64,000 nt of DNA from assembly GCA_946699065.1 (NCBI GenBank), contig CAMPDV010000518.1, positions 62,001 to 126,000 on the forward strand, in the 5' to 3' direction. This document shows positions 12,811-26,820 of this stretch, piece by piece (the stretch's first letter is position 1; each line of letters begins with the position of its first letter). A program made the translations under genes and the position numbers. The DNA comes from Loxodes magnus (lineage: Eukaryota > Ciliophora > Karyorelictea > Loxodida > Loxodidae). The notes beneath the pieces are model-generated. The model was not told where the DNA came from. It did no database searches and worked only from the letters and a program-made list of their open reading frames with translations.

Positions 12811-13383
12811 TCAAGGGAGAGCTTTTTTCTAATTGTATCTCTAAAGAGCTAACTTGAAAATTTCGAAATGATCGAATGACCATGCCTAAGGATTTTCTTA
12901 AAATTCGCTCACTTTTTTGAACTGAGCTGTTGCTGCATCATCTCCAGCTTTTGGTTCACCTTATGCGTTATTTATTAAATAGCAGATACTTACAACATGT
13001 TTTCTTGGATCTCTACTTGGATCTCCTCTTACTGTTAAGAGTTCAGCATCTGTAGCATCTAATAGTGTTTCTTCTTTGAGCTCTCTTAAAACTCCTGTTT
13101 GTGGATCCTCACCATAATCCACAAATCCTCCTGGAAAAGCAATGCATCCTTTGAATGGATCATATTTTCTAGTGATCAATAGCAAATATAATTCATTATT
13201 AATCTCCCTAAAAACTATAGCATCAGCAGCCATACAAGGATTTCTAAATTTGTCTGGCTAAAGAGGAGGCATAGCTCTTCCCAAATTATCTACTTCTGAT
13301 CCACATTAGGTGCAACGTTTTACTACAGGCTTTGCTTATTCTACCATTCTTAATAAAAATTTAGATCTTTTAAATAAAAACAT
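12811..13383 (-). CDS. Nudix hydrolase with N-terminal Cys motif
   Basis: The frame encodes about 190 residues. The Nudix box is complete: GGFVDYGEDPQTGVLRELKE plus ET, matching GX5EX7REUXEE, the Mg-binding catalytic helix that hydrolyses nucleoside diphosphates linked to another moiety. Upstream, KRCTQCGSEVDN followed by NPCMAADAIVF resembles the zinc ribbon of NADH pyrophosphatase-type Nudix enzymes, although only three Cys are seen. The end, SFDHFEIFKLAL, is typical of small Nudix proteins. TAA and TAG serve as Gln; the stop is TGA 12813-12811. Two in-frame starts are possible: ATG 13383 adds a basic, hydrophobic leader (MFLFKRSKFLLR) suggesting mitochondrial import, while ATG 13347 (MVEQAKPVVKRC) gives the cytosolic core. 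Substrate unknown. Confidence 0.88.
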
Positions 13384-14443: not shown

Positions 14444-15163
14444 TCAACCCTCAATTCCTTCAGGTCTTGCTGTTTTTCTTCCTTCTTATTTACCACAGTC
14501 AACGCATATCATCGCTTCATTGGTTAAGGGAGCTAATTATCCGTAACATTTTCTACATCTGGCATACACAACTCCTAAACCTAGATTTTCGTTAGCAGTT
14601 CCTAAATAGAACCTTTGACTGTCACCTAAGGAAATAACTTCTGCTTTAACTATATCTCCTGGCATATAGCTTTGCTCTATTTTTACTCTATCAATTTCAT
14701 ATGATCTAATATCTTATTTTCTTATAATAGCTAAAAAATCGTGAGGAAGAGGTAAGCAAATTTCGTTTAATTAACTATTTTCCTATGTTTCTTCGATTTC
14801 CATTGGCTGACTTTAATCATTTTAGTTGTTTAAATTCTTTTAAGTATTTTGAACAGGAATATTTAGGTTCTTATTCTGATAAACAATTGCCTAAATTAAA
14901 GCTTTTACTCCAGTATCATAACTCAATCCTGTTATTTTGCAATAAACGATATCTCCAACCATAGGTTGCTAACTAATCTATTTCAATGGGATGATTTCAA
15001 TTTTATTATTCTACTAGTCAATTTACACTACTCCTTGCATAGTAGATATGATTCTGTTATAAGCAATCTTCAAAGTTCCATAACCTGCTTCTAATTCTTT
15101 ATCAGTAGAAACTGTTTATCCAGGTAGTGCCTTAATCTGTTTAGCAATATTTAACTATTACAT
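14444..15163 (-). CDS. CSL4: Exosome complex subunit CSL4 (EXOSC1 family)
   Basis: The 239-residue frame has the three-part CSL4 layout: an N-terminal beta region with the PGQ motif (KALPGQTV), a central S1 RNA-binding domain (from MVGDIVYCKITGL through MPGDIVKAEVISLGDSQRFY) and a C-terminal zinc ribbon (ARCRKCYGQLAPL and AMICVDCGK, two CxxC pairs). CSL4 is one of three cap proteins on the RNA exosome ring, guiding RNA into the 3'-5' exonuclease core in nucleus and cytoplasm. A Gln/Asn-rich insertion in the S1 domain (about residues 90-125) is encoded largely by TAA/TAG. Length and zinc ligands are normal for the family. Start ATG 15163; stop TGA 14446. One of the firmest calls in the window. 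Confidence 0.95.
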
Positions 15164-16408: not shown

Positions 16409-19400
16409 TCATATGAATGAGGGATTTAAACTTCCCAGATAATTACTTAGAGTTCGATTTCTTTCATTCAGGAGTTTATATATTGATTACAATTGATTTA
16501 CTTCCTTGAACAGCTTTTCTTCCTTTTAAGTATACTAAAGATAGAGCTTGAAAGATTATTCTATTTATCGCTTCAGGTCTAAAATCACTTCCTCTAATTA
16601 TAAGATTTATTTTTCCTAAATGATGTTCAAAATTCTACAGAAATGTCAGAAAACTATCAAACTGCTTTAAAGATTTAGCTGGTTTTGCAAGTTCTTAAAA
16701 TCATTTTTTCCTTCAAGTTGCTTCTTTTTAGAAAAATTAACAAAGTTCAATATTTTTAGCTTTGCTTACTCGAAATTTACGAATATTTATTTAATCTGAG
16801 TGGCTTAGTTTTTGCTCCATAACTCTATATCTTCAGATTATTCTATCCCTGATTAGTATTGAGAAAGCTGTTAATGAATACTTGTTATCTAGCTCTGCTA
16901 TTAAGTATGAAGATGCCTCATTTCAATTTCATCCCTATTGATTACTTTAGTACTCTCGCTCTATTTTCTAAGCTGCCTCTTCCTTTATATTTGCTTAAAG
17001 CTTTATAAGAACTTTTCTAAATATCATTTCATTACCTTAGATACATCAAGAATGTCTTCTCTTTGAGATTGAATTTTGGACTTTTTTAGAGTTTTTCTTT
17101 GAATTGAAATGAAAATGTTAATACAGATGTAAATGAGAACAAAGACAAAGGGAAATATAAATAGATCAGAGATTATAGGATCAGCTTCTTTTAACTTGCT
17201 GTAGTCGAATTCTCACACTAGGAAAATAAAGCAGGTCAGTATCGAACCACCAAAGGAGTTAAATTAATAGCTTGAGTGGGAAAAAGCGAAATAGCCTAAA
17301 TTGGCAAAGGCAAGAGTGATAACAAACAGTATGAATAAAAAATAGAACAAATCTCTAGCTGCAATTGTAAATGCGTTTCATACATTTCTCATTCATTTAT
17401 ATTAAGATATTGAAGTTAGAAGCTTAAAAGATAAGAAAAGGAAGCAAAGTCCTGAAATTATGGAGTACATATATCTAAAGTTTCCCACTGATTTAAAATC
17501 GTACCAAAAGTTATCTGCTGTCCTTTAGATAGGAAGCTTCGAAAATGATTTATCTGTTGAAATAAAAAGTATCCAGCTTATTATGCAAATTATCGCAAGG
17601 CTTTGAACTAAAATTTCTAGCATCATAGTATAATCAAATACAAAGCTAAATCTTCTTATTCACTCTGGCTTTGATTATCATCTCAAAAACTTTAATTAGC
17701 TAGGCAAAAAATCGATATTTTGGGTTTTTCATTTGCTGTAGCTTCTGTTTAAATCAATTAGTCGACTAATAGTTCTTTTGATATAAAAAAGTGTTATAAT
17801 TACAAAAATTATTTCTAGAAAGAGTCTAAAGAAGTCTAGCTAAGTATGATAATATTACATTTTTGTAGGCAAATACTAATGCCATTGAACAATGTTTCCT
17901 TAAGCTTCTGGTTAAAAGGATAGCATAATGTACATAAAGTTATTATTATCAGAATTGTAAGTCACTAATTCAATTACCATGCTATTTAGTCTCAAGTTCG
18001 CTATCCCATCAAAAGCTAACAGATCTATTTATGTTGAGTTATGAGGTTTGAAGTAGAAAACATATCCTCCTTTGTTATTAAAGCCAGAGTTGATTTTATA
18101 GTTATACTTTCTTTAAGTAGAAAGTCCAATGACTGATTCAGTAAATTCATCATCAGCTTTTCCCTTTGAAAAGTCAAAGTTATACAAAGGTCTTCTATTT
18201 TCTTAGTATTTAATGAAATTCTTAACTTCGTTTTATTTAGTATTATAGTACCTAAAAGTTACTTGAATAGGTCCCTTATTCTCAAGTTTTTAGCCCACTA
18301 AGTAATTTACATCGTTATAGTACCAATATTCCACCCCATTTACTTAATCAGTCTAAAAATAGGTGAAAATAAAAAACCTAAACCACTGCATTCATTACTA
18401 TGGAATTTAAATGTCCTTCATTCTCATCTCTTATTCATTAAAATACTTATTTTCTAAAGGTTACTAAATTGATCTTCTCGCTGCATAGGTTTACTATTGA
18501 TTGATTGTTAGTATAATCAATATTAGTAGAACAATTCAATAAACTAAAGTAATTCAGAAGTTTATTATATTTTGGCAGCACTTTTTTCTTTTATACGGGT
18601 CTAGACTTTCTTCTTATAGCAGCAATAGTTTATCAGACAGATCTGGATTTTGAAGGATATAAGAGTAATCAATATTATAAGAAAAGTCCATTCTATCTGA
18701 TTTGTTTTCATCGTCTTCTTGCTTTAATTTATTTATTTCCTAGTCTAAAAGATCGTTAGCTAACTATAGAGGCATTCGCTTTCTATTCTTGTAGATGAAT
18801 TTAAGTTAAATGATCTTCAGTTTATAGAATCTTCAAATTTTGAACATAACATGCTTATCATCTTTCTTAACCTTCTTCTACTTGCTCTCTAGTATATTGT
18901 CCTGCTAATCATAATGTGTGCAAATTAAAGCTATCAGAAGACTCATGAAGATTCAGGATAGAAAGACTTGACAGCCAATATATAGAATCCAAGTGTACAC
19001 TTTCTCTATGCTATAGCTTAATTTAATATCGTCAGTTTTGAATATTATTATGAAGAAGATGTTAGCAAGAGATTAGGTAACCTCGTTAAACCCTTCTTAA
19101 AATTAGCCAAATTGGATATAAGCTAAGAAAGTGAAAGCTAAGCAGATTGTTAGCATTATTATTAGAAAATTCGTAATTTCCTCTCGTGCATAGTGCAAAG
19201 TTGCAGGAACTAAAGAAGCTCGTGGAATGACTGTAAGAAACCTAATTAGTCTTACAGCTAGCATCATAAAGCTAACAGCTTGTATTCTTTTATAGTTCAA
19301 AAAAAACTGTGCAAGCTTGTTAAATTCATCTATTAACTCGTAACTTCCTAATTAATACTTATCAGTATCAACCATATCTATTCTAAATTGGTCCCTTATG

Positions 19401-20755
19401 TATGAAAACCACAGACAAAAACCAGCCAGAATTAAAATAAACGAAACTATATCAACTGCATTCCAAAACTAGCTAAACCAGATTTTGGTTGCCTTTAAGA
19501 AGAATTTAATCCACTGAGTTCTCTCTATATTCTTCTATAGAGATTACATTAGTTTGTCTTTCTAAGAGTTTGTTACATCTTATTGAATATTCTGACTCTT
19601 TTGCTCTTCTTTGTTGGCCTTCTCATCGATTTACTCATAAACAGTTTACTATTTTTATTATTTTTCTGGCTTTTGTTGGGTGTTTAGGATAGAAACTGCT
19701 TAAGTGTTTTTTTAGTCGTTTTCCAGTTTTAAAAGCTTTGATAAGCCTTTAATCTTTAAGATTACTTAAACTACATTTCATATAGTTATTACAGTCAAAA
19801 TTATTTCCAAAGCTAGTCTCCATCAATGATCGCTTAAGTAAAATAATTCAACAGGCATTGACTAAATCTATGACGAAGGCGTTCAGATTCCTCCTGCTTG
19901 GATATCTAACTTTAGAATAATGTAAGTAAAAAGCTAGAAATTAGCATTGTAAGTTACGAAATCTATGAAGAGCTGAATGGTTTAGACATCGATAAATTGG
20001 TTTTGAATGGCTTGAGAAAATTAGCTCGTAAACTCTGATTTATTTTGTCCCAATGCTTCTAAATTCCATATAAACCCTCCTTCTCCAAATAAGCCTCCTT
20101 TAGTATAATAAAAGGTTTAATTAGGACCATAAGGCAAATCACTTTCTATAGAGCTGTCAAATTATGAAGGCAGTTTCTTTGCAGCTCAATTTAATTTACA
20201 AAATTCTGAGTATTTAGGAGAATCATTTTCTACTAGTTTGACTCTTCTCTAAGTTACTCTTATAGAAGAAATTAGCTTATTGTAAAAATTAATCATATAA
20301 GATTCTAAACGATCTGTATTATTATTTATCTGCATTGGAAATAACTCTAAAGGAAATGATAATTCAATTCACTTTTTGAAGTCTTCATAGTTAAGAATTT
20401 CAGAAAACTTGTTATCATTAATTTTGTTTGATCACTTTCGAATAGATTGATTTATTTTAAATGCGTTGTCAAGTTTCAACTAATCTTGAACGACTATGAA
20501 CAGCAAGATATAAACTATTAAATACTTTATCAAGTTTGTCCATTTGAATTCGTCTATTTTACTAGTAGTAATATCCTCTTGCTCTTCTTCAACTTTCTAT
20601 AAGCTTTTTTACTCTTCTTATAATAAATTAATGTCATTAACTTCGCATAACTCCCCTTCCTTTTATAATCTATTATCTCTTGAAGTAAAAGAAGTGTTCA
20701 ACTTAGAAGGATTCTCATCATAGTATTGCTCGCCTTTTTCATGTATTTTTTCCAT
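16409..20755 (-). CDS. Tandem two-domain polycystin-2-like cation channel (1,448 residues)
   Basis: A single frame from ATG 20755 to TGA 16411. Unit 1 (about residues 1-610): TM1 KYLIVYILLFIVV near 72, a polycystin extracellular domain with the signature FIDFVTYNANF, TM2-TM5, and a pore/TM6 region (SLANIFFIIIFKTDD, CQVFLSWIFMSLLIALI). Unit 2 (about 725-1290): a new TM1 (WITLVYWIVLLILIILTI) beginning exactly at TGA 18556, a second polycystin domain (VIELVTYNSDNNNFMY), TM2-TM5, and a classic PKD2 pore GGSILTCFIFLVWEFDYSKL near 1170. The C-terminal 150 residues are coiled coil. Start, TGA 18556, the pore codon at 17233 and the end are all in phase, so no intron is needed. Normal PKD2 channels have one six-helix unit and form tetramers; a fused pair would assemble as a dimer, as two-pore channels do. 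Many conserved Trp are TGA. The main risk is that TGA 18556 is a stop and these are two genes, but unit 2 would then lose TM1. Confidence 0.88.
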
Positions 20756-23078
20756 TAGCAATTAAATATTTTAATTATCAGTTTGAAATTAGAAATGTAA
20801 CTATCCTTATTTACAGTAGTTGGTACTTTTACTTTCTTTAGTGCTAAATTATTGAGTTAAGACTTATTAAATATTCATTTATGCTTATTTACATAAACTA
20901 TTATTCTACAGTGTAGTGCTATATTAAGTTTGCCTTTACATTTATATAGCTAATGTTACTATTGTCTTCATATACTTATACCAAATTACCTTGTTGTTTT
21001 AATATTATCAATATTGTCTTTTCATTAATGCCATTAACTAGTCTAATTCTATATTATCATTGCTAACTAAAAAAATAACAAAAAAAGTAAACATTTTTAT
21101 GATAATCCTGTGAGAAAAAAAAAGGTTTAGGAAGTAGAAGGATTTGCTTAAAATAGTTCACAAGCTCATTCTGAATAAATACAAAGGTTAACTGTAAGAT
21201 GCTTTAACTTTTTATTTATCAGACTAAGATACTTTTAATTAAATGACATGCTAATTATGCTAAATGCTATCGGTATAATAACTTAGATAGCTAATAAACA
21301 GGGAAAATTAACTAGACAGTACCACATATAATTAACCTTTTACTCTAAAGGATTCCTTTTATTTATCTCATTAGTATGAAATATTTGCTGCTTAGATGCA
21401 GAAACTTATTTAGCTTTTTAAAGGATTTTCAGGAAGAGATGAATAAGGGTTTTGTGCTTTGAATAGTTTATTAAAAGTAAAAAGTAGAATTTAAGCTTTA
21501 ACTTAGCTTAAATGAACAGCTTCATGTTTCTATTTCACACTTTCTTCTCTTTAAAGTTATAATATCCTTTGCTCACTTTCCTACTAGTAGATTAGATTGG
21601 ATAAGGCTTATATATAAGTATTTTTTATGGGGATTCAAATAGTTTAAACCTCAGCAAATGTAAGCTAAAGAGGTGAAAAGTAAATAGCATTTAATAGATC
21701 TATAATTGAGCTAATTATGAAATAAGGTAGCAGGAATGCTAGCTAAGTTATTTAAGAAAAAGACTCTTCAAAGCATCGAAAGTCATTAAGTGTAAGAAGT
21801 AATTTACTTTTACGAAGCTTTAGCTCTATTTAAATTAGAATCCACGGTCATTAGCTTTGAAATTTAGCAAAACTAAATGAGAAGTAGACATTGTGTAGAA
21901 ATTGGGGTTTATATAGTAGAGTTTAAATTGTATCTAACTGTTAGTTAAATAAGCATAAAAAGACCTATAAGTGATAGCTTGATGCTAATTTGAGAAGTAT
22001 ATTAAACAGCGTTAATATATTTGCGTGTTTTATAACCTTTAGTGGTAAAAAGTGGTTAAAAGATAGTTACTAAAAGCGAAAGAAAATCTAATAGTTTAAT
22101 TTTATTAGCGAACGTTAAATTTCTAAGTATAGACTAAAAGCATAATAACTTTATCTATTTAATTGATTAAATAACAAACCAGAAAGAATCGCTAGAAGTG
22201 CTTTTTTATCAAATGCTAAATAGAGAATAAAATGTGAGAACAAATGCATCTTTTGTTAATTAGTTAGGTAATAAGTATATCCGTCAAGTTTTAAATAAGA
22301 AGAGTTTTATGCTATATAATCTACTATAAGTATAGATAGAAATTGTAGAAGGAAAGAAGAGAAATAAACATATAGCAAAATCTTAATAAATGTAGTAATA
22401 ATAAACACTCAATAAATGAAATTAATTAAGATATTTAGACTAGAAGTCACATTAATATTAAGAAAATTGATCTTTTTAAATGAGCATAGTAAGTAAATCA
22501 CTATCCCATATTGAATTAGCAAAAGAAAAATTTATCAAAAATATAAAAAAATAGACTTAAGTAGAGGACTAATTTTTTAAATCTCATTATCTCAATCATT
22601 TACTATTTTTAAGTGTGTGAAGATAATGATTAAAAAACGGATTTAAAATAAGTTTACTGAATGTAATATAGAGGAATACAGTTAATAGAGAAACAGTTTT
22701 ATTTATTAATAATTAAAATAAGCAACTAAGCAAGAACATTATTCTTCAAGAAGTAGAAAATTAGAGAAATTTTATTTTTAAGAAAAGTATAGATAAAAAA
22801 CAAATTTTGTAATATTTAAGTATAAAAGCGTATAACCTTGTGAAATTGATATATTTAATCATATTACAAGCTTTAAGGCATATTAAAAATATCAGATAAA
22901 TGAATTAAATAAACCTTAAATGAAACATACCAAAATATTAACTTTATTTTAATGATTTGATGGAGAGAAAAAATTCAAGAAGTAAAGAAAAAAGTTGAAT
23001 AAGTTTTAAATTTGCATACAAAAGTATTCTTGTATAGTTTATTTAAGAAGTTAAGGTAAAAATTTAAGAAGAAAATAT
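20756..23078. other. Intergenic, one weak open frame
   Basis: About 2.3 kb, mostly featureless AT-rich sequence. From ATG 22478 a plus-strand frame (MSIVSKSLSHIELAKEKF) reads as Lys/Gln/Ile-rich protein for about 200 codons and runs into the next gene in another frame. It uses several TGA close together early on, so I do not call it a gene. It could be an upstream exon of the membrane protein that follows. Confidence 0.35.
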
Positions 23079-23963
23079 ATGGTCAACATAATGATTTGAG
23101 CATTACTTTTATAAAGTCGTTTAAAATATTTTTAAATTGTCAGCTGAGTAACTGAAGGTATAACAATAATTTACTAGAAAGAAATGGAAACAAATCCTAA
23201 TGATATCAATACTGAAATTTTAAACTAAATAACTAGATCTGGCTTTAAATTTTAGCACATTATTTTATTCAATTCTATACAATCAGGAAAAGGAGTTTAA
23301 GAAGGTCTGGATATGCTTATATCTTTTCATGAAAGATTACTTGGATACCATGCTTTTATGGCCGGATTCGAATTCTTAGGACTTTCTTTTGGAATAGACT
23401 CATCAGAAGATCTTGGTGCTGTGGCAATAGGTATTCTTACAATTGCTTTTTTACTAAGTGCTATGGGATCAGTTGTTTCTTTTATTGCAATTGAGTATTT
23501 TAACGGAGTTAAAAACGAGTCAGATTTAATGATTATTGAAGGACTACTAAAGTACTGAAGATTCTTCTATGTTTCTGATTAAATGGGATTCTTGTCTACT
23601 TTGACTTTTATGGTAGCAGTCAACGTACTGATTCATATTGATTTACCAGATTGAGCATCATTTACATTAAATGGAGCTACATTTGTCGGCTCTTCAATTT
23701 TAATGTTTTGCTTTAAGAAAATTATATTAAATAAGCAAGTGTACGGAGGAGGTAGGAAAATATTCTCTCATGCAAATCAGAATTTAAATACTCAGTTACA
23801 AGAGAAGACACAAAGTGTTAATTTAAGTTTAAAGTGAGCAGATTCAAATACCTTTCATTTTAATTAAAGTAGCTTTTATACTTTAAATTTAATTAAATAT
23901 TAGAGTCTCTATAGCAAGAAGTCAAATTTTATGACACATAGAAATATTTCACTTCATTCGTGA
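23079..23963 (+). CDS. Four-helix membrane protein, weak Orai-like pattern
   Basis: Starts are ATG 23079 (MVNIMIWALLLQSR) or, perhaps better, ATG 23184 (METNPNDINTEILNQITRSG). A soluble helix (GVQEGLDMLISFHERLLG) leads straight into four hydrophobic segments: AFMAGFEFLGLSFGI, a long VAIGILTIAFLLSAMGSVV, MGFLSTLTFMVAVNVLI and ASFTLNGATFVGSSILMFCF, then a polar tail. Size, the amphipathic N-terminal helix running into TM1, and a Glu inside TM1 (GFEFLG) resemble Orai store-operated calcium channels, but this is a pattern match without a signature motif. TGA at 23556, 23653 and elsewhere are read as Trp. The end is either TGA 23835 (after VNLSLK) or 23961; the tail between them looks protein-like, so I give the longer version. 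Confidence 0.65.
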
Positions 23964-24515
23964 AAGTTTTAAATCTTCGTTTCTTATTTAGTTTGTTAGA
24001 TAGAGTGAGAAAATACTAGTGGATTAAGAATTTGAATTACCTATTTAGTATCTAGGCTTAGCTATTTTTAAATACATTTTTACCTGTTTAATCTAATCTG
24101 ATTTCAAAATTAGATTCAATTGAGTTCTTTGAACTTTGCTTCTGAAGGCCACTAACTTATTAGTGTCTTCTAAGAAATTTTAAATTTTTTCTAGTGGCTA
24201 ATTTAAATATAAAAGTAGCTAATAAAGGTTTTTGCTTTTACGATCTTATAATGTTTAATTTATCTTTTATGAATGAAACATCTTCATAGCATTATTATAT
24301 AGAATATTATAATCAAATTTAAACAAATTGGGAATTTAATTTAGTCTATGTCTGAAAGCTATTTATTAATGAGAACTCTCTAAATGTTCCTAATTTTTAC
24401 TCTTTATATAGCTAATAAATAACTATAGTTAGTTAAATTTATATAGCGTTTATTGATTTTCTTAGTATTTTGCAAATCTTTTGAGTATCATTTTTGATTA
24501 AAAAATTATATTATA
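23964..24515. other. Intergenic, no supported gene
   Basis: AT-rich stretch after the four-helix protein gene. Nothing recognisable. Confidence 0.45.
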
Positions 24516-24800
24516 GAACGTGTTTCACCTCAATGATGCACAGATTTTTAAAAAATTTATTTGTTCTTATTAAGTCTTAGGGAGGTTTATCCATGTGCTA
24601 GCATTCCCTGAACTGCTTTGTAACTATAAGGTTGCCTTCGAAATGCTACTCTAAGAAACCTTAAAGTCCTAGAATCTTTCAGCCTATTTTTACTTAAAGT
24701 CTCGAGTCCAAAATTCTCTCCCAATCACTACCAAAACTCTTTTTCTGTTCTTCATCACTGAGTACTTCCTGGTACCAGAGGTCCTTCGTTCTAAATTGAG
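24516..24800 (-). repeat. GC-richer dispersed element, inverted relative to the 26.8-kb copy
   Basis: Two blocks are shared with 26821-27060 in inverse orientation and at similar spacing. On the minus strand ACCTCTGGTACCAGGAAGTA (24783 down to about 24764) matches AACTCTGGTACAGGAAGTA (26857), and GGGAATGCTAGCACATGG (about 24608) matches GGGATGCTAGCACAGGG (27024). In one minus frame the copy reads as plausible protein (DLWYQEVLSDEEQ, GSDWERILDSRL, FRECQHMDKPP), so the element may derive from a coding part of a mobile element. Compare the block at 218-495. Confidence 0.5.
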
Positions 24801-26820
24801 AATAGCTCTTCCCTTTGAAATTAACAATTGTTAATAAGGTTGTATAGATTTAGCTTACAAAAGAAAAGATAAGAATTAATCAGTAGTTTGAAACTATAGA
24901 TCATAACCAAATAAGATAGACTATAAAAAATCATACCTTTAATCATTATCTATCATATACTATTTAAACTGCTTATTTGCCTTCAAATTTTATTTTGATA
25001 TATATTACAAATATTCAATAGATATCAGTCTAGATATTTGTTCCAATTAATATGATTATACTGCTAATCAAGAATATACATTGCAAATAATATTTTCATG
25101 CAAGTAATTTTAATTACAATGTAAATCTCTAAAGATATTTAAGTTTGAAAATCTTCATTTTAAAGCATTAGATTCATTCTACATAAGCCTTAATTTATCA
25201 TGTGCTAAAGATTAAATTCAAATTTAATATTATAATAATAATTAAATAATGTTATTCCTCCTTTTATTAGATCATCATGACTTAGGTTAAAACAATTGTG
25301 CTATTGCTTATAAAAAATTCCATATTGCTACGGTATTTATTTATATTTCTTCCTATTCTTTCTTTTCAGCTAAGTTCTCTTTTTATACTTTTAAGATTAT
25401 GCGTTCTGTAGCTCTTTTTAACAGTTTTTTCTTTTTTATTCTATTCGCTTCTGTTGTTAATTCATGTAATTTCATTCCTCGATACAATTTTTCGAAATAA
25501 ATTTTATCTTCTTATGTTCAATATACTCAACTTAATAAGTTCCAAAATTTATTCTTCTATTCTTGTAGTTTTGGTAAACTTTTATTGTCCCTTCTTATTG
25601 CAGTATCAGGATTCTAAAACATTTCTCTGTTTATTGATGTAAACTGGCATTTACTCTTTCTCAACATCCATATGGTCCTTAAGTTAAATAATTTGAATCC
25701 GATCAAATAGATTTTATTTATAAATATCAAACTATAATCCCACAATTAAATATTGTTAATAATTGTCCATATAAAATTTCTTATTCAGCTCCTTTATTAT
25801 GGTGTAATCTTCTAATACTCATATCATCTATAATAAGTGATGATTTTTGCTTTGTAGAAGAATTTTTATATTTTATATGGACCAAGTGACATCTTTTCGT
25901 TTTAATCTATTAGAAATTTTTTTTCTACGGAATTTCAAATTTTTTCAATAGCAATCGATTTTTATTATTTTTTACGCTTTTAGTTTTTATGATAAAAATC
26001 AGCAAGTTAAAGCTATTTCTAGATTAAATACTGAATAATTAACAACAATTTATTTAAAAGAGATTATAAATATCAAAATTATTTAATCAATAGTATAAGT
26101 ATAAATATTTAAGTTTCTAATACTTTAGTATAATCCAGTTAAGACGTAATATTTTTAACCTTTTAATTTGTTAAGCTTCTTAGAATTATTAAAAATAAGG
26201 AAATTCCTGTTTATATAATGCTTTTTAATATTAATACTAATTTTAATTTTAAGCTGCTTAAAGAAAAAAAAATTATAATGTCAGATATTTTATTTTAATC
26301 AAGCAAACACAAAATAATTATAAAAATTGGATCACTGTTTATCTAAAATAAATATAAGATAATAAGAATTAAATTAATAAATATGCATTCTTTATAGTTT
26401 GATGTAAGATGCAAAATTAATTTAATATGCCTATTTGCTATACTTTTCTATTCTATATTTTTTTAATAAATCTATATAAATTTTACTTTTTCTTTTGCCA
26501 TTTTTTTTAGTTTTATATCCTATTTTTTCAATATTTACTACATCCTAAGAATCTTATTTTAAGTGCTTACTAATGATAGTATGATATTTAAATGGTATCA
26601 TGAGGGTATAAGTAATATTTAAATTATGTATTTATTTTTTTAACTTTTCTCGAGTTATTAAGTATCTATTTATGCTAAATTTTATAATTTATATATCTTG
26701 CTATCAAGAATTTATAAGTAAGTACTTATGATAAGTATGATATTTAAATAAGATATCATTAGTATTATTGTACTTTCATAATTTAAATATTTTTTGATTT
26801 TATTAAATAATTGATTTTAA
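24801..26820. other. Very AT-rich intergenic stretch
   Basis: About 2 kb with no supported gene. A short motif is repeated near 26570-26600 and 26727-26760 (AGTATGATATTTAAA followed by a TATCAT half-site), giving two imperfect palindromes. These may be remnants of small element ends. Confidence 0.4.

Follow-up and report, generated by a model that had tools for sequence, protein, structure and literature searches.

The two-unit polycystin gene of Loxodes magnus described here carries, in a single frame, two units that are both homologous to polycystin-2, joined across a junction under coding constraint. As judged from the sequences compared, it belongs to a real, old and expanded channel family and is neither a misread frame nor an assembly error. 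The reading we favour, at a probability of roughly 0.7, is that a single gene encodes a tandem polycystin and that its chains pair into a four-fold, pseudo-tetrameric channel. The gene lies in a stretch of 64,000 nucleotides (C518:62001-126000, hereafter the window) of a genome of 705,730,643 bases in 7,843 contigs; the macronuclear assembly of this ciliate is given as 706 Mbp in the portion of the source available to us (PMC11441545).

Two polycystin units in one frame

The same portion of that source reports UGA as the sole stop of Loxodes magnus, coding also for Trp, and describes its introns as some 19 bases long and its 3' ends as short (PMC11441545). Translated with the karyorelict code (table 27), the gene contains 19 TGA, 57 TAA and 25 TAG as internal codons, and under table 6, where TGA is a stop, the frame is interrupted at its 19 TGA codons. 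A first-pass annotation of this DNA had placed two polycystin units in one frame of 1,448 codons, with the start, TGA 18556, the second pore and the stop in phase. Translation of 20755-16409 and the paralogue loci agree with this, and the strand, unstated in that annotation, is minus (Table 1). As a code without a dedicated stop leaves frames almost never closed, the open frame is in itself weak evidence, and the single gene was therefore tested via its paralogues, by recurrence, junction evolution and history. It is these paralogues, and not the openness of the frame, that rule out a chance open frame.

Table 1. Features of the two-unit polycystin gene, in window positions
Feature	Position	Strand	Basis
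Two-unit polycystin gene	16409..20755	minus	ATG 20755, 1,448 codons, TGA stop 16411-16409; table 27 translation
Unit 1 TM1 (residues 75-93)	20477..20533	minus	hydropathy; alignment with polycystin-2
Unit 1 polycystin extracellular domain (about residues 94-313)	19817..20476	minus	Pfam PF20519 at residues 117-300, E 3.8e-12
Unit 1 TM2-TM6 and pore (residues 314-611)	18923..19816	minus	PF08016 at residues 424-616; hydropathy
Unit 1 filter triplet I571-F572-K573	19037..19045	minus	aligned to L-G-D of polycystin-2
Cytosolic linker (residues 612-732, about 120)	18560..18922	minus	conserved; gaps in threes
TGA codon 734 read as Trp, start of unit 2 TM1	18554..18556	minus	sense, non-Trp codon in 23/23 aligned paralogues
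Unit 2 TM1 (residues 733-751)	18503..18559	minus	hydropathy; profile alignment with unit 1
Unit 2 polycystin-type extracellular domain (about residues 752-973)	17837..18502	minus	unit 1 profile-profile alignment; last part aligned to PKD2L1
Unit 2 TM2-TM6 and pore (residues 974-1216)	17108..17836	minus	PF08016 E 2.3e-17; hydropathy
Unit 2 filter triplet V1180-W1181(TGA)-E1182	17210..17218	minus	aligned to L-G-D of PKD2L1
Single C-terminal cytosolic tail (residues 1217-1448)	16412..17107	minus	resembles paralogue tails

Hydropathy with overlapping windows merged gave six helices in unit 1 (residues 75-93, 314-332, 433-451, 493-511, 527-545 and 593-611) and six in unit 2 (733-751, 974-992, 1048-1066, 1098-1116, 1136-1154 and 1198-1216), the latter with an additional pore helix at 1165-1183. 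Taken alone, each unit matched PKD_channel (PF08016; cut-off 22.4 bits), unit 1 at E 3.4e-12 and 46.7 bits and unit 2 at E 2.3e-17 and 63.6 bits. Between TM1 and TM2 of unit 1 the polycystin extracellular domain PF20519 scored 46.6 bits against a cut-off of 23.6; a single-sequence Pfam search of unit 2 did not detect it. Profiles of the two units (23 rows for unit 1 and 22 for unit 2, window rows included) aligned over 485 columns including the extracellular domain, with a probability of 99.9 and E 3e-37; that of unit 2 was thereby aligned full-length to unit 1, and to PKD2L1 over its last part only. The best match among solved structures was polycystin-2 for the unit 1 profile (E 1.3e-44) and PKD2L1 for that of unit 2 (E 9.9e-40), and the polycystin-2 entry 5k47 was matched at E 1.3e-44 by unit 1 versus E 1.9e-35 by unit 2. 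The earlier proposal that each half has its own TM1, extracellular domain, TM2-TM6 and pore is upheld by hydropathy, by PKD_channel in both halves and by the profiles, with PF20519 found in unit 1 only and the extracellular domain of unit 2 probable. The second TM1 does lie at TGA 18556 as proposed, this triplet being the second codon of the helix.

The segment ahead of TM1 in unit 1 is just 74 residues long, and among Pfam families at E up to 1 none had its best stretch in it. Pfam likewise gave nothing above a cut-off in the C-terminal tail, which was compared among 18 of 24 loci. A single-sequence structure prediction of residues 64-1252 reached a mean pLDDT of 36.8. Downstream of the channel gene, on the minus strand, lie two ordinary neighbours with a NUDIX domain (window 12880-13230) and an exosome CSL4 (EXOSC1) domain (14627-14965), and a Pfam search in six frames of 20770-25670 gave no match at E up to 0.001.

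Recurrence, junction and history of the fusion

The junction between unit 1 and unit 2 is crossed in one frame at 35 loci of the same genome, and 29 of these have both units whole. A tblastn search with the window protein (277 candidates, 32 places scored) found the junction crossed in one frame at all 32 places and both units covered at 27, among them L031, which has a frame break in the pore of unit 2. A divergent query added loci on C38, C126 and C134, the last matched in two pieces, both in one frame. Besides L031, five junction-crossing loci are shortened or broken (C640:165934, C91:268791, C877, C2360 and C7221). Across 24 compared cores the other 23 were 26-65% identical to that of the window, and the near-identical L033 and L040 may represent a single gene that was assembled twice; some of the approximately 30 two-unit loci may be allelic copies.

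Searching the genome for the PKD_channel family returned at least 144 matches (150 of 299 candidates scored), with 37 pairs of same-strand neighbours less than 4.5 kb apart, 31 of them at 1.7-2.0 kb and the other six at 2.1-2.8 kb. Phase 0 was kept in 26 of the 31, all belonging to the two-unit polycystin family, and five were out of phase (C56, C75, C10, C18 and C5). These phase-shifted pairs were considered as further fusions and rejected after reading one of the five, C56: its locus L054 (C56:178000-183600) is a four-repeat voltage-gated channel of the Ca/Na (CaV) type, which perhaps explains the other four pairs also.

Some further features of the copies may be mentioned. The contigs C39 and C48 carry six tandem-polycystin loci each, a local expansion. 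The frame breaks in or after unit 2 in L031, L046 and L050 may represent decay, unspliced introns or assembly errors. Ten contigs (C877, C2360, C7221, C526, C591, C3373, C163, C1216, C2491 and C6617) gave matches of equal score and equal make-up to unit 1 or part of the tandem gene, four of them at contig bases 326-907, as if repeat-borne or left over from assembly.

The linker contains the motif NIDYSYILQNP at 18644-18676 in the window, seen as DxD..ILxNPE in other loci, and an invariant Cys directly ahead of unit 2. Over residues 700-770 pN was lower than pS in 11 of 12 pairs; the nearest relative, L045, differed from the window with pN 0.19 and pS 0.90, L033/L041 showed barely any constraint (0.032 versus 0.043), and the exception, L031/L038, had one difference and no visible constraint. 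Gaps occurred in the linker in three of eight pairs (6, 9 and 3 bases, all multiples of three), and the third codon position was the most variable in six of the eight, the other two being near-copies. In the 300 nt past the terminal TGA, on the other hand, all eight pairs had off-frame gaps and codon periodicity was absent. Since the linker shows codon-type gaps and periodicity and the DNA past the terminal TGA does not, it evolves as coding DNA; a contrary detail is a 2-base alignment gap between L035 and L045 within their final 300 coding bases. The core has 18 TGA codons, and 15 of them align with Trp among the six commonest paralogue codons, the exceptions being 734, 1121 and 1244. As none of the 23 paralogues has Trp at position 734, the TGA there could, for the window gene only, be a nonsense change of recent origin.

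A tree built from 47 unit rows, where the placement of the long branches L008m, L042 and L036 is unsure, had a 100/100 branch splitting unit 1 from unit 2, and the same pairs and small groups recurred within each. With two other Loxodes polycystin units and segments of PKD2 and PKD2L1 as outgroups, unit 1 and unit 2 each formed one group (support 100/98 and 100/99), in a tree where the two units need not be each other's closest relatives. The distance matrices of the units, taken over 22 of 24 loci, correlated at 0.987, a value that no permutation out of 2,000 reached, and linker distances correlated at 0.90 with the distances of each unit. The two supported groups and the correlated distances therefore argue for a single fusion before the family expanded; by these comparisons the fusion is old and the pair later expanded as a unit.

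Both ways of dissolving the gene into two can be weighed on this evidence. That unit 1 ends at TGA 18556 and an adjacent gene for unit 2 starts after it is suggested by TGA being the only stop of the code, where it can also be Trp (PMC11441545, in the part at hand). Yet a stop at 734 would cut the first helix of unit 2 at its second residue, the paralogues have a sense codon there in 23 of 23 cases, and coding constraint runs through this position, with TGA 740 aligned to TGG Trp in 9 of the 23; the paralogue codons and the constraint contradict such a split, which we consider very improbable. The frame breaks in the related copies L031, L046 and L050 show that the assembly may hold errors, but a false join of two genes would have to recur at 35 places on many contigs, among copies as diverged as the cores above, and is extremely improbable. 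Such a join, which the first-pass annotation had itself named as fatal to the fusion, is contradicted by the 29 whole loci, the coding-type evolution of the junction and the correlated unit distances.

Pores and the predicted channel

The L-G-D selectivity filter is absent from both units of the window, which have I-F-K and V-W-E, and the Trp of the latter is encoded by TGA (window 17213-17215, minus), the ambiguous stop codon. Read by eye in 24 loci, the unit 1 filter is I-F-E in 12 and I-F-K in the window copy only; in divergent loci its third place is Asp in five and other residues in six. For unit 2, also by eye, close relatives have V-W-E or V-Y-E, and most of the distant loci have T-G-T, T-G-A, S-G-I and others. 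An earlier description of unit 1 as divergent and unit 2 as classical in the pore does not hold as worded, as neither filter is L-G-D and the unit 1 profile fits polycystin-2 better; the single-sequence PKD_channel score alone (63.6 versus 46.7 bits) favours unit 2. Because polycystin-type proteins with other filters have been reported, at least in the portion of PMC7399828 available, a missing L-G-D alone does not exclude a polycystin.

Two-pore channels assemble as dimers. As described in the section of the source at our disposal (PMC7312350), they have 12 helices, arranged as two six-helix repeats in one chain. By analogy we infer that two Loxodes chains form a similar pseudo-tetramer; since four TRPP subunits make one channel, two chains should, by homology, suffice. 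Each chain consists of two six-helix TRPP units that share one C-terminal tail and are connected through the conserved linker, a cytosolic stretch of about 120 residues. Contacts between extracellular domains would hold two such chains together as a dimer, a cation channel with four-fold arrangement in which units 1 and 2 alternate. Unit stoichiometry would be fixed at 1:1, with one tail per two units, and the filter would be built of two different halves, so that in the window protein Lys and Glu come in turn, which may affect selectivity. The predicted role is that of a sensory or Ca2+/cation channel, in cilia or an internal membrane, as for other polycystins. The repeats of two-pore channels are of the voltage-gated type (Ion_trans), whereas the Loxodes units match PKD_channel; Ion_trans in unit 1 stayed at 22.8 bits, under its cut-off of 25.

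A fused precursor cut in the linker would instead release a pair of conventional polycystin subunits for later co-assembly. In its favour, the linker lies in the cytosol and varies in part, and the Chlamydomonas Pkd2 of 210 kD is cut into two smaller proteins before entering a compartment, according to the available part of PMC6627415; a bare cleavage site, however, would not need the linker motif to be kept and constrained, and just one C-terminal tail follows the pair. We regard cleavage as unlikely. PKD1-type chains are regulatory, non-conducting partners of PKD2, and in Loxodes one unit might similarly conduct with the other tied to it by fusion as a non-conducting regulator, which would not make a two-pore channel. 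The Lys at the unit 1 filter position of the window, a place occupied by Glu or Asp in 17 of the 24 loci, speaks for this, as do filter triplets that differ between the units in all 23 loci readable by eye for both (L031 is broken there). Against it, the pore region and S6 are kept in both units, matching polycystin-2 or PKD2L1 through the pore, and a pseudo-tetramer would in any case need both units around its pore; we find a regulatory unit quite improbable.

Going back to the pairing of intact tandem chains, the chances seem evenly balanced for the broader proposal of a natural two-unit TRP channel family from an old fusion of polycystin units, its pseudo-tetramers having two kinds of filter halves (Glu/Glu in close relatives, Lys/Glu in the window), with about 30 Loxodes loci that possibly include the channel of the gravity-sensing organelle. 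The gravity-sensing Mueller vesicle has been described, with its channel unnamed in the available text of PMC5460273 and PMC10954788, and the placement of two-unit polycystins in it is only a lead.

Relation to other channels

In polycystin-2 and PKD2L1 (TRPP, PF08016 and PF20519) we find the same order as in each Loxodes unit, with TM1, a polycystin-type extracellular domain (probable in unit 2), TM2-TM6 and a pore. In these known channels a chain holds a single unit and the filter is L-G-D; the Loxodes protein has two units, with I-F-K and V-W-E. TRPP proteins are taken to have one six-helix unit per chain, and two in one frame were found at 29 whole loci; because two units share one frame, we class the Loxodes protein as a two-unit variant of polycystins. 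In PKD1-type polycystins the PKD2-like part is preceded by big additional modules at the N-terminus and by another five helices, unlike the Loxodes protein with its short N-terminus.

Paramecium PKD2a, PKD2b and PKD2L are ciliate polycystins too, and Pkd2 there has the usual six-helix TRP plan; they comprise two close PKD2 paralogues and one more distant gene, as given in the available part of PMC6627415. Set against these three PKD2-type genes, the roughly 30 two-unit loci, some perhaps allelic, indicate a channel expansion in Loxodes. The oomycete PKDRR proteins are likewise a lineage-specific polycystin architecture, with filters LGA and AG(D/E); there R domains are added to the channel, and the part of PMC7399828 available has no mention of two channel units.

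No two-unit polycystin or TRP channel was found in titles and abstract openings of the literature, among the matches listed. Comparable architectures may nonetheless lie unnoticed in protein databases, and other eukaryotes may have the fusion, perhaps already annotated. Searching non-eukaryote collections of viral and genome contigs with the unit 2 profile gave 600 and 482 pattern matches, respectively, none of which was a relative. On the prevailing view, fusion took four-fold channels from one unit per chain to two and on to four, with the two-pore and CaV/NaV channels as cases from the voltage-gated branch. If our reading is correct, a TRP-branch family that halted with two units would add a separate instance of unit fusion, and its members would be natural concatemers of fixed stoichiometry, useful for asking the role of each unit.

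Other Loxodes polycystins were seen along the way. On C82 (L056 and L012) the S6 of an upstream polycystin unit continues in frame into a cytosolic linker, followed by a likely 28-base intron and, about 240 residues on, by TM1 of the next unit. C80 (L030), read in its downstream part only, resembles this tandem, and L055 (C193), from a partial reading, seems to be a polycystin of one unit whose N-terminus is soluble. Loxodes may therefore have, beside single-unit genes, another and divergent tandem class in which the linker is longer and introns are short.
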